Assembly (NCBI GenBank): GCA_902568875.1
Contig: CACFSG010000006.1
Span: forward strand, 1 to 49,626
DNA: 49,626 nucleotides
Direction: 5' to 3'
Origin: an uncultured Pelagibacteraceae bacterium
GTDB taxonomy: Bacteria; Pseudomonadota; Alphaproteobacteria; Pelagibacterales; Pelagibacteraceae
The translations under genes were made by a program, and so were the position numbers. This document shows, in pieces, positions 46,271 to 49,626 of the stretch. The notes under the pieces were generated by a model that did no database searches, was not told the DNA's origin, and saw only the letters and a list, made by a program, of their open reading frames with translations. The stretch's first letter is position 1. Each line of letters starts with the position of its first letter.

Positions 46271-46347
<77 letters not shown>

Positions 46348-46421: not shown

Positions 46422-47165
46422 TCACCCTGAGGTCTCCTCTGCAACACCACAAGTAGTCATACCAACAGCAAATTTTGATATGGATTTTCTATTCAAATTA
46501 TAAGATTGTATAATTCTATGAAACCATGCTGGTATACTTCTATCAAATTTAACTTCTAAAATTGTATAGCCCGCTTTACACTCAAGCCATGATAAAGAAT
46601 TTTTATCATTAAAAATATTTTCTCCTCTTGTACTTAATAAATTCTTATCAAATGTTAACCTGAAATATAAACCAAACTTATTAACGTAAGGACGTCTAAT
46701 ATAATCAATTAAAATATAAGGTTTTATATCTTTTTTAAATGTATCGAAAATAAAATTTTTAATCATCTCATTTCCTGGGTAAATATTTAATAGCTTATGA
46801 TTAAGTTTCTTATCTAAAAAAAAATTTAAATATCTATAGTCTACTTTCATTCTTTTTTTATAAGTTCTCTCTAAATTTCTTCCTTTAATCTCAAAAAAAA
46901 TTGGGATATTAGGATCTAATGATTTACCATAAGTTCTTAATCTATATTTCCTTCTAGTTTTCATTCCATCAACTTTTTCAAAAAAATTTGATGAGAATAT
47001 ATTTTCATAATACAAAGAACGAACATAATATTGATTATTTAATTTTTTTTGAACAAAATTATCAAAAGACATGAAATTTCTTGCTTCCTCTTCTATTTGA
47101 TCAGAAATTTCTTTACTTAAAATATATTTGAATTCATACCTTTTAAATAATTGATTTTCTTTCAT
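46422..47165 (-). CDS. VTC-domain protein (polyphosphate polymerase-like)
   Basis: 247 residues. FKRYEFKYILSKE at the N-terminus, YYVRSLYYEN, KTRRKYRLRTYG, PIFFEIKGR and YTILEVKFDRSIP are the basic and acidic strands of the VTC tunnel domain, in the expected order. In yeast, Vtc4 uses this fold to polymerise ATP gamma-phosphate into polyphosphate; bacterial members usually occur beside CotH-like and DUF4956 genes and are not well characterised. There is no membrane segment. It is 17 bases downstream of the CotH-like gene. The activity is inferred from the fold only. Confidence 0.82.
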   Translation of the reverse strand: MKENQLFKRYEFKYILSKEISDQIEEEARNFMSFDNFVQKKLNNQYYVRSLYYENIFSSNFFEKVDGMKTRRKYRLRTYGKSLDPNIPIFFEIKGRNLERTYKKRMKVDYRYLNFFLDKKLNHKLLNIYPGNEMIKNFIFDTFKKDIKPYILIDYIRRPYVNKFGLYFRLTFDKNLLSTRGENIFNDKNSLSWLECKAGYTILEVKFDRSIPAWFHRIIQSYNLNRKSISKFAVGMTTCGVAEETSG

Positions 47166-47182
47166 GTTTAAATTTTTTAATT

Positions 47183-49626
47183 TTAATTTTTTAAATTATA
47201 ACCTCGATGTTTATTTTTAATTGATGATATTTTTGAATACATTGGATGTATCAATTTTAAATCGCTGAAAATGATTTCTTTTTTTTGTTTATTAGACAAA
47301 TCAAAAAAATCTATATCATTTAACTTTATATTTTCTCCTTGTATTAATTTGGGCCCAACAATTGAAGTATCATTTATCTCTAAGTCTGACTCCTTTGAAA
47401 CTTCTAACAAATTTTCCTCAGCTAAAAAATATGATCTATAAATATGAGCACTACCACCTCCTCCATACTGCCAATTTTTTTTATACGCACTTAATTGAGT
47501 TTTGTTATCTTTAAAATTTACATGGAGAACTTTAGCTTTAGATTTATCTTTTACTGCTAAAGCGATATTATTTTTTTCAAGTAATGTATTATATATAAGC
47601 ACATTAGAACTTTCACCTATAGATAATCCTTTGTCTCTAGAGCCAGAAATAACCGAAGAGTCTACTAATGCCACACTTTCCATAAAATCAATTCCATCAT
47701 TTTTTGAATTTATAAATTTTGAATTAGTGATCCTTACATTGGTTGAAATATCTACATCAATTGCATCTGCAGGAGCATTCACAAATTCAGCATTGTTAAT
47801 AATTATATTATCACAATAAATAACATGCATCATATCATCATATTTTGAATGATTAATTAATCTTAAATTTTTAAGAAAAATATTATTTGTATTGTGTAAT
47901 GAAAACATAGATGTGAAATTAATTTGATTGTAATATCCTCCGCTTCCTCCATCAATAATTATATTTGAAATTTCACTATTAGTTGTTTTTTTTCCGATTA
48001 AACTTATTGAACCCCAAGGTTTGCTGTTTTCTTTATCTCTTTTGAATATAATTGGTTTTTCAACAGTACCATTTGCTATCACTTTGTTTTTAAATATTAC
48101 ATGAGAACCTTCACTTATTAAAAATTGAGTCCCGGGGCTTATTTCTACAGGTTTAGTAAAAACTAAATTCTTTTTGACCTTTATTTGACCTGAAATACTT
48201 TTAATCTTTTTATTGTTATCTAGCAATTCCTTGTCAAAGATAACATTATTAAATTTATTGGTTTCAGCTGCGTCAAAATTTGAAAAATATTTTATAAAAA
48301 ATTTTTCTTGAGAGAAAGGATTTTGAGCCCGTATATTATTTGGCTTAATATTTTTTTGTGTAATTATACTAAATTTTGTAGGAGATGCTTCAATCTTAAA
48401 ATTTGGATTAGCAAACATATTCGTTTTTCTTAAACTATAAGAAATTCTATTTGCATATAATTTTGCAGGTATAATAATACTCTTGTTTTCATTAGAGAAA
48501 AATTTATACTCATCCTCATCAATAAGTCCGTTATAATTAGTATCTAATCCGGCCCACTTTGGAATTTCATCATCAAAAATTAATTCAATAGTGCTAACCG
48601 GCATTTCTCCCTCTACAAAAATATTTATTTCATCTAAATTTTTGGTCCATCTAACAGATGGTTTTGTAAATAGTTTATTTTTTATTATTTCTTCAGTTTT
48701 TTTCAGATTCAGTTTAAAAATCTCTATATCTTTAAAAATTTTTTTTGCATTAATTTCTGGATCCCTTTTTAAGGATATTGCAAGTTTTTTATTAATTTTA
48801 TCAAAATAACTAATTTCCTCAGATAAAATTTTTGTATCAATAACATAATTGAGTAATTTATTGTATTTTTTGTCAATAAACTCACTGTTTCTGTTTAATA
48901 ATGAAATTAAATCGTCTTTTGAATATTCTAATGTATAAATTTTATTATCAATTTTTACTGGATGTGGATCCTGTAAAATTGGATAAACATGTCCATTCCA
49001 AGGATCAATAGCTATACGAACATTATGAAAATGATCTGCCTGATAGCTTTTTGTTAAGATCATAAAAGATAAGTAGTTAGCCCATGTATCTAAATCTATG
49101 TATTCAAGTAAATTATTAAAATCTTCTTTTCTTACTTCTGCCGATTGAAGAGTAGTTAAAAAATTTTTTAAATCTGATTTATCATTTAAATCTTTTTGAT
49201 TAAAAATTGCTGTTTTAGCCCACAAACCTGGATTATTATATAAATTTTCATCGAGACCAATTCTTTTTTCCACATTATGATTCTCGCCTTTATAAAGATT
49301 TATCGGCATAATTTTATTTCGCCGTAAATAATTCTCATCAAATCTTTCATCTTGCATAAAAACACCATTGCTTTGTCCATTTATATATAATTCAACTAAT
49401 TTAGAGTTATTGGTTAAAATCCCCATTCTTTTTGCAATATTATTGATTGGGAACAGCTCCAAATCAAAACCTGTATACTCATAATACCTTCTTCTATCGT
49501 GCATTTCTTTTTTTCTTGTTTTTAATCTTAAATTTTTTTTTTCTAATAACCAATTTTGAGGATTATCTCCTCTGTATCGAAGCTGTATATCTTGTAATTT
49601 TCCATCACTATTTAACATAGATCCAT
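47183..49626 (-). CDS. CotH-like protein with EF-hand loop and parallel beta-helix domain (5' end cut off)
   Basis: The frame is open to the right edge, so the protein starts outside the window; at least 813 residues are seen. Numbering from the internal Met at 49618: a CotH-kinase-like region (about 1-320) with IQLRYRGDNPQNWL, VELYINGQSNGVFMQDERFDE and WANYLSFMILTKSYQADHFHNV; a canonical EF-hand loop DTNYNGLIDEDE (359-370); then a right-handed beta-helix (about 490-720) with repeats such as NNIFLKNLRLINH, NIIINNAEFVNAPADAIDV and NVRITNSKFINSKNDGIDF. The usual CotH acidic motif near the YPILQDPHPVK stretch is changed, so kinase activity is doubtful. It is probably exported and paired with the VTC gene. 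Confidence 0.78.
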   Translation of the reverse strand, partial: GSMLNSDGKLQDIQLRYRGDNPQNWLLEKKNLRLKTRKKEMHDRRRYYEYTGFDLELFPINNIAKRMGILTNNSKLVELYINGQSNGVFMQDERFDENYLRRNKIMPINLYKGENHNVEKRIGLDENLYNNPGLWAKTAIFNQKDLNDKSDLKNFLTTLQSAEVRKEDFNNLLEYIDLDTWANYLSFMILTKSYQADHFHNVRIAIDPWNGHVYPILQDPHPVKIDNKIYTLEYSKDDLISLLNRNSEFIDKKYNKLLNYVIDTKILSEEISYFDKINKKLAISLKRDPEINAKKIFKDIEIFKLNLKKTEEIIKNKLFTKPSVRWTKNLDEINIFVEGEMPVSTIELIFDDEIPKWAGLDTNYNGLIDEDEYKFFSNENKSIIIPAKLYANRISYSLRKTNMFANPNFKIEASPTKFSIITQKNIKPNNIRAQNPFSQEKFFIKYFSNFDAAETNKFNNVIFDKELLDNNKKIKSISGQIKVKKNLVFTKPVEISPGTQFLISEGSHVIFKNKVIANGTVEKPIIFKRDKENSKPWGSISLIGKKTTNSEISNIIIDGGSGGYYNQINFTSMFSLHNTNNIFLKNLRLINHSKYDDMMHVIYCDNIIINNAEFVNAPADAIDVDISTNVRITNSKFINSKNDGIDFMESVALVDSSVISGSRDKGLSIGESSNVLIYNTLLEKNNIALAVKDKSKAKVLHVNFKDNKTQLSAYKKNWQYGGGGSAHIYRSYFLAEENLLEVSKESDLEINDTSIVGPKLIQGENIKLNDIDFFDLSNKQKKEIIFSDLKLIHPMYSKISSIKNKHRGYNLKN
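48509..48544 (-). other. EF-hand calcium-binding loop within the CotH-like protein
   Basis: The encoded DTNYNGLIDEDE has Asp, Asn, Asn, Asp and Glu at loop positions 1, 3, 5, 9 and 12 and Gly at 6, which fits a canonical calcium loop. It follows the CotH-like domain and precedes the beta-helix. A single loop of this type is common in extracellular bacterial proteins. Confidence 0.7.

Follow-up and report, generated by a model that had tools for sequence, protein, structure and literature searches.

The window covers contig C6 completely (49,626 bases), and at its end a gene for a VTC-domain protein lies beside a gene for a very large CotH / EF-hand / beta-helix protein. The pair appears to be part of a mobile SAR11 cassette of three to four genes, which relatives carry in full as DUF4956, an anchored TPR-like protein, CotH/beta-helix and VTC. 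Sequences or a structural model show which genes are present and how they are linked, as well as the folds, the conserved VTC residues and the N-terminal anchors. Our reading of them, an envelope cassette supplying an exported glycan with phosphate, is tentative, and we hold it at somewhat less than even confidence. The assembly comprises 855 kb in 44 contigs and is 67% complete. The features of the locus are as follows (L007 is a homologous locus in a relative):

46422-47165, minus strand: VTC-domain gene (triphosphate-tunnel, polyphosphate-polymerase-like), 247 amino acids (aa); PF09359, profile match to Vtc4
47166-47182, minus strand: intergenic gap of 17 bp between genes of the same strand
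47183-49624, minus strand: CotH / EF-hand / beta-helix gene, 3' 813 codons; frame open at the contig end
47288-48217, minus strand: right-handed beta-helix, frame residues 470-779; limits transferred by alignment from L007 570-879
48509-48544, minus strand: canonical EF-hand calcium loop DTNYNGLIDEDE, found by sequence pattern
48599-49624, minus strand: CotH kinase-fold domain, frame residues 1-342; limits transferred by alignment from the L007 model
48968-48970, minus strand: Asp, frame residue 219 = L007 D319; aligned with metal-binding D251 of CotH
49022-49024, minus strand: Asn of the conserved HN, frame residue 201 = L007 N301; invariant in the alignment
49034-49036, minus strand: Asp, frame residue 197 = L007 D297; near the catalytic D228 of CotH, one residue off
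46271-46347, plus strand: initiator tRNA-Met (CAT), at the edge of a flexible island and outside the cassette

A preliminary description, made from the letters of the window, had placed a VTC gene 17 bp from a CotH / EF-hand / beta-helix gene near tRNA-fMet, and the open reading frames, the Pfam matches and the EF-hand pattern confirm this. Judging from the short gap and the common strand, the two genes are likely read in one transcript. Relative to L007, the nonsynonymous and synonymous substitution rates (dN/dS) were 0.089/0.84 (~0.11) for VTC and 0.073/0.37 (~0.20) for CotH, and both genes are under purifying selection. Because of the low dN/dS and the repeated co-occurrence with DUF4956, the gene pair is no chance find. 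The GC content of the pair was about 0.23-0.26, hardly different from the rest of the window's end, so composition gives no sign of transfer.

Alignment to L007 placed ~100 N-terminal codons of the CotH/beta-helix gene beyond the contig end at 49626. In L007, a 232-aa DUF4956 protein, a 340-aa anchored protein, CotH/beta-helix and VTC are encoded in one direction. The start of the CotH gene and a DUF4956 gene had been predicted to lie beyond 49626, and in this relative both were located there. An identical four-gene set was found in L008 at a different genomic place. The window's own assembly yielded no DUF4956, no second VTC and no second CotH; this would be expected if the contig break falls inside the cassette.

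Thirty SAR11 regions were chosen by DUF4956 (31 of 63 listed places; the other 32 places were mostly weaker matches), and one further region, L084, was chosen by VTC and stands outside the 30. DUF4956, a CotH-like gene and VTC occurred together in 23 of the 30 regions. The other seven were cut by a contig end, with two still showing CotH. Hence, all 23 uncut regions carried all three genes, as expected from the earlier claim that VTC, CotH and DUF4956 belong together. Matches of the DUF4956 profile A3 were found in 56 of 397 Pelagibacterales genomes and PF16316 matches in 7 of 398 genomes of a phylum sample, a rough contrast since the queries differ. Outside SAR11, VTC adjoined DUF4956 in 10 of 12 regions and CotH was present too in 5 of 12 (in L102 by Pfam); neither VTC nor CotH was seen in two (L101, and L135 with a match below the cut-off). 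Searches starting from VTC found relatives in 4 of 149 genomes besides the window's own, and a CotH-like gene adjoined in all four.

By its domain and its tunnel residues, the window VTC fits the triphosphate tunnel polyphosphate polymerase family. PF09359 matched residues 8-237 (E 1.5e-33) and covered positions 1-232 of the 235 in the profile. A profile search against the PDB was required to match yeast Vtc4 (3g3q, E 9.5e-13), as the single sequence gave chance matches only. The VTC alignment contained 43 rows, all matches over 190 aa; L065, L066 and L084 repeat L008, L007 and L003, which leaves 40 distinct loci. All 43 rows were identical at R9, K13, R75, R77, E92, K94, K103, R157, D173, E204, K206 and K231, and 42 of 43 at R169. 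The window VTC keeps all 13 sites, so the tunnel assumed in the preliminary description is intact at these residues. Those kept include the acidic metal ligand and the basic tunnel residues with the equivalents of Vtc4 R264/R266; the other Vtc4 residue labels follow, in part, a count on 8i6v_E. No hydrophobic stretch was seen by eye, and VTC was taken as cytosolic because of this. In the profile alignment, R75/R77 align with Vtc4 R264/R266, which are essential for polyphosphate synthesis according to the available part of PMC8749416.

A VTC tree of 38 rows placed six SAR11 sequences, called type A, in one clade (99/99), apart from SAR11 type B. Five rows titled Gamma- or Deltaproteobacteria stood next to the type A clade (96/95). 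The inner order is unsure because of several long branches; the tree was made without the repeats L003, L065 and L066, the divergent SAR11 VTCs L004 and L005, and L133 and L134. One genome, G378, carries a cassette of each type.

The window CotH protein matched PF08757 above the cut-off (residues 60-290, E 1.1e-11) and the beta-helix family PF13229 (residues 575-713, E 5.3e-9). Its L007 homologue is 85% identical and has 916 aa with an N-terminal hydrophobic anchor. The L007 model had a mean predicted local distance difference test score (pLDDT) of 72. Residues 71-442 of the model aligned with CotH 5jd9 in VIA-align at Z 31.2 (root mean square deviation 2.7, 330 aligned residues), and the beta-helix (residues 570-879) reached a pLDDT of about 94. 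The best non-CotH rows were the mannuronan epimerases AlgE6 and AlgG (Z about 29). The two folds proposed in the preliminary description are thus both present in the model. The best Foldseek matches of the beta-helix were a GH87 glucanase and AlgE4; the adhesin PfbA and phage tailspikes were also among its fold matches. On balance, the modelled beta-helix would resemble alginate epimerases best. It contains 47 of the ~77 invariant columns in alignment A1, many of them polar.

The catalytic D228 and the metal-binding D251 of CotH were taken from the accessible part of PMC7821199. All 11 rows of the alignment have the Asp aligned to D251 of B. cereus CotH (L007 D319). The acidic motif's second Asp (DxD in B. 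cereus CotH) was absent from 10 of 11 rows, so its loss is normal for this CotH subfamily. The altered acidic motif had earlier been taken as a degenerate site, and this was not supported. L007 D297 was placed one residue off D228. Among type A CotH, D297 was kept in 13 of 14 proteins and N301 and D319 in all 14. Altogether, 35 CotH proteins were compared, three of them (L011, L014, L018) from loci with no VTC in view. The EF-hand loop pattern was also found in L007, L008 and L070 and was absent from the other 32 of the 35 searched.

PF16316 matched the DUF4956 proteins of L007, L008 and L012 with 55 to 62 bits (cut-off 30.6). The MgtC family PF02308 gave 22.1, 21.6 and 18.0 bits on DUF4956, under the cut-off of 31.4 (E 2e-4 to 4e-3). 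With hhalign, DUF4956 aligned to seven MgtC proteins at E 6.5e-6 over 115 columns, and five unrelated membrane proteins stood at 0.099 or worse (single sequences, hence a weaker control). These profile matches suggest that DUF4956 is distantly related to MgtC. An ACT-like tail (PF13291, E 0.037) was found in one of three proteins. The profile result agrees with PMC12345266, where the DUF4956-like SIR_1592 is described as MgtC plus ACT. The best match of the DUF4956 profile in the PDB had E 0.69. In viral contigs, 25 stretches fitted two DUF4956 peptide patterns, and none was confirmed as DUF4956.

The 340-aa protein consists of an N-terminal helix, TPR-like helices and a beta domain. Matches to TPR folds (Z about 11-13) fall on the helices, not on the C-terminal beta domain. 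It accompanied type A in all five uncut SAR11 type A regions (L065-L067, L070, L084). A gene of 345-461 aa stood directly upstream of CotH in eight of eight loci (L009, L011-L016, L018), and for seven of these proteins the N-terminus could be seen to be hydrophobic. As sequence conservation is weak (10-17% identity to L007 outside SAR11), these proteins were grouped as one family because of their place, size and layout. At contig C20 of genome G445 (L068), each end of the contig carried a mirror copy of the DUF4956 and 340-aa genes, which probably reflects a palindrome produced in assembly.

The cassette lies in flexible islands, often among sugar genes. Among 130 neighbours of 22 cassettes (L075 and L107 excluded), there were 10 matches to glycosyltransferase family 2 (GT2), seven to GT group 1 and 10 to Epimerase. 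The 41 other genes of the window gave at most one match for each, a modest control from one stretch of one genome. Type A sites were tRNA-fMet (window), sugar islands (L067, L070, L084) and EF-Tu (L008, named by eye); the L007 cassette stands between potassium-uptake-like and amino-acid ABC genes (names by eye). In L018, a type A CotH/beta-helix gene without VTC has genes for a GT9 heptosyltransferase and for an ABC transporter as neighbours. PelG was found in none of 27 carrier genomes, and its positive control was detected.

The tRNA-Met of the window was called initiator because of C1 x A72, read by eye. The stretch next to the same TrcR gene was read in 14 relatives, and 12 of them (L115-L126) showed the tRNA-Met. 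The following gene was transaldolase/FSA or PntB in six of these, another gene in five, and in one the sequence ended. Of the five other genes, one was not scanned; the rest included glycosyltransferase, sugar epimerase, O-antigen ligase and Mur ligase genes. As the following gene varies among relatives, the tRNA-fMet site is regarded as a flexible-island edge in SAR11. Elsewhere in the window, at 2617-2926, ARAGORN flagged a tmRNA of the permuted type with the tag ANESYAIAA. Upstream of the L008 cassette (L008:947-4033), six tandem prepilin-like genes with nearly identical N-termini were observed.

In the envelope reading, VTC would use nucleoside triphosphates in the cytosol to build a polymer of phosphate, or else a different phosphoryl compound. 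The MgtC-like DUF4956 may keep VTC at the inner membrane and carry either the VTC product or a signal through it. Beyond this membrane, the CotH domain, held by its anchor, would transfer phosphate to an exported polysaccharide, which the epimerase-like beta-helix may bind or alter, with the TPR-like protein as a putative scaffold. The outcome would be a variable surface glycan bearing phosphate. The link to exported sugars is drawn because of the sugar-gene neighbours, the epimerase-like beta-helix, the neighbours of L018 and knockouts in S. intermedius. There, aggregation in sputum medium fell by >50% and the amount of Pel changed when either the CotH gene or the DUF4956-like gene next to Pel was deleted (PMC12345266). 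Fam20B and POMK, kinases of secreted glycans, show in the portions of the literature available that extracytoplasmic glycan kinases exist. In a more specific version, exported polyphosphate threaded through DUF4956 would fuel the anchored CotH, which phosphorylates a glycan held by the beta-helix. We consider this version very unlikely. If true, it would explain how a bacterial CotH-type kinase could work beyond the cytoplasm, where ATP is lacking, and why the genes stay together when they move.

Several observations weigh against phosphate transfer by an envelope cassette. Starting from CotH, VTC and DUF4956 were present in 7 of 13 loci and not in the other six (L009, L011 and L018 fully visible, L010 masked in part, L014 and L019 close to the end of a contig). 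In L009, L011 and L018, the CotH/beta-helix gene had the upstream 340-like gene and neither VTC nor DUF4956. The conserved VTC-CotH linkage proposed earlier therefore holds when viewed from DUF4956 and VTC but is looser from CotH. The CotH loci without VTC lowered our confidence in the envelope reading and in its polyphosphate-fuelled version. Five loci of family f24 (same class) have DUF4956 and VTC with no CotH match. As the linkage counts differ by anchor gene and such natural variants exist, the gene order suggests that DUF4956 and VTC form a tight unit and that CotH is a frequent partner able to stand apart. L008, a type A protein, lacks D297. Non-enzyme beta-helices (NosD, tailspikes; Z 26-27) follow the epimerases closely; Vag8 also reached Z 26-27, and the range for other beta-helices was Z 25-27. 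The window's own upstream neighbours are cut off by the contig end. In S. intermedius, VTC deletion had no reported effect, and none of the three genes is needed for Pel to be made (PMC12345266).

Type B adds to these points. Of 18 type B CotH-like proteins, 16 had no Asp at the D297 column (two had it), 17 lacked HN (present in one; N in four) and three had no Asp at the D319 column (present in 15). At the HN position, K or R plus S stood in 12 of 18. Because type B loses catalytic residues, kinase chemistry cannot be general across cassettes. Type B was called CotH-like by our own profile: Pfam CotH at E 0.01 gave no match in the eight scanned (L074, L077, L080, L082, L103, L104, L106, L113), and the CotH part matched the type A-based profile at E 1e-13 or better in proteins with split hits. 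Six type B regions (L074, L075, L080, L082, L083, L107; four by scan and two by eye) are flanked by ilvC on one side and leuA-mreB on the other, L083 also with a GT2 gene. At L107:5284-7901, the CotH-like gene was split over two frames that overlap, whereas the VTC and DUF4956 frames next to it are open; this is either a broken gene or a sequencing error.

The loss of catalytic residues in type B speaks for a control module, in which DUF4956 would sense or adjust phosphate/ATP status, VTC would make a signal for the cytosol and CotH/beta-helix would be a glycan-binding pseudo-kinase that reports on or gates glycan export. The MgtC-like profile of DUF4956 with its ACT-like tail fits this, and so does S. 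intermedius, where Pel rises without the DUF4956-like gene and falls without CotH (PMC12345266). Of four loci searched, L094 and L095 (f24) have a gene for a PHO4 phosphate transporter after DUF4956-VTC and L133 and L134 do not, and we give it little weight. However, D, N and D are kept together in 13 of 14 type A CotH, and VTC has a polymerase residue set beyond the needs of a sensor. We regard the control module as doubtful. If the beta-helix were instead a surface protein varying against phage, as an adhesin or phage-receptor scaffold, VTC and DUF4956 would merely load phosphate. Flexible-island sites such as tRNA-fMet, the EF-hand loops in four type A proteins, and PfbA and tailspikes among the fold matches point that way. 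Yet the 47 invariant, often polar beta-helix columns are unlike a diversifying receptor, the N-terminal anchor suggests the inner membrane, and mannuronan epimerases came first in VIA-align, with GH87 glucanase and AlgE4 in Foldseek. This makes a variable scaffold unlikely.

The preliminary description had considered phosphate storage or surface phosphorylation. For storage, VTC would stand in for PPK1 and form polyphosphate granules; its residues are intact, and PPK1 was not found in 19 of 27 carrier genomes. PPK1 was, however, present too in the other 8 of 27 (3 of the 11 carriers at least 90% complete), and Ppx-GppA was found in 2 of 10 carriers and not in the other eight, counts that include many incomplete genomes and leave unrelated phosphatases possible. 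The complete single-contig genome G012 had neither PPK1 nor Ppx-GppA. Moreover, storage needs neither CotH nor beta-helix. Storage thus fared badly and is, in our view, most improbable; surface phosphorylation is possible and is favoured. VTC, CotH and DUF did not appear in the available text on HIMB59 phosphate islands (PMC10734472), nor VTC in that on oceanic polyphosphate (PMC3030594).

The trio itself is known. In the accessible part of PMC7112168, CotH, polyphosphate polymerase and DUF4956 genes accompany Gram-positive Pel loci, and there and in PMC12345266 the trio is reported beside Pel without an assigned function. The Pel accessory genes SIR_1592-1594 of S. intermedius (PMC12345266) likewise have the three families adjacent and are tied to an exported polysaccharide. 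SAR11 differs by the absence of PelG, by the extra anchored TPR-like protein and by a CotH fused to a beta-helix, whereas Pel-locus CotH is fused to FN3. NELoc-2 of Clostridium perfringens, as far as the available portions of PMC2879425 and PMC11677781 describe it, shares VTC (two genes), CotH and a glycosyltransferase; at a guess, the pair of genes annotated there as tubulin/FtsZ GTPase may encode DUF4956. It differs in the duplicated VTC, a recombinase, HEAT repeats and its Gram-positive host. The polymerase of the yeast VTC complex (Vtc4, 3g3q / 8i6v) shares the tunnel fold and the residues at the compared sites, whereas SAR11 VTC lacks SPX and a fused membrane domain and its membrane partner would be DUF4956. 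The Bacillus spore-coat kinase CotH (5jd9/5jda) has the fold, the D251 equivalent and HN in common with SAR11 CotH, to which a membrane anchor, EF-hand and beta-helix are added and which shows the one-residue shift near D228. With the mannuronan C5-epimerases AlgE/AlgG, the likeness of the beta-helix is one of fold (Z about 29), at 10-14% sequence identity.

According to PMC12345266 (2025), the arrangement was not found outside the Pel locus in that paper's analyses, and no earlier description of the SAR11 form was found in the mostly open-access literature. The SAR11 cassette is new in its four genes, the beta-helix fusion and the absence of Pel. SAR11 keeps few genes to spare, yet it carries the trio in more than one version and at more than one site, with no PelG, which means that the trio is able to stand alone. 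Natural variants without CotH, without the catalytic Asp, with CotH but no VTC, or with a phosphate transporter make its function testable.

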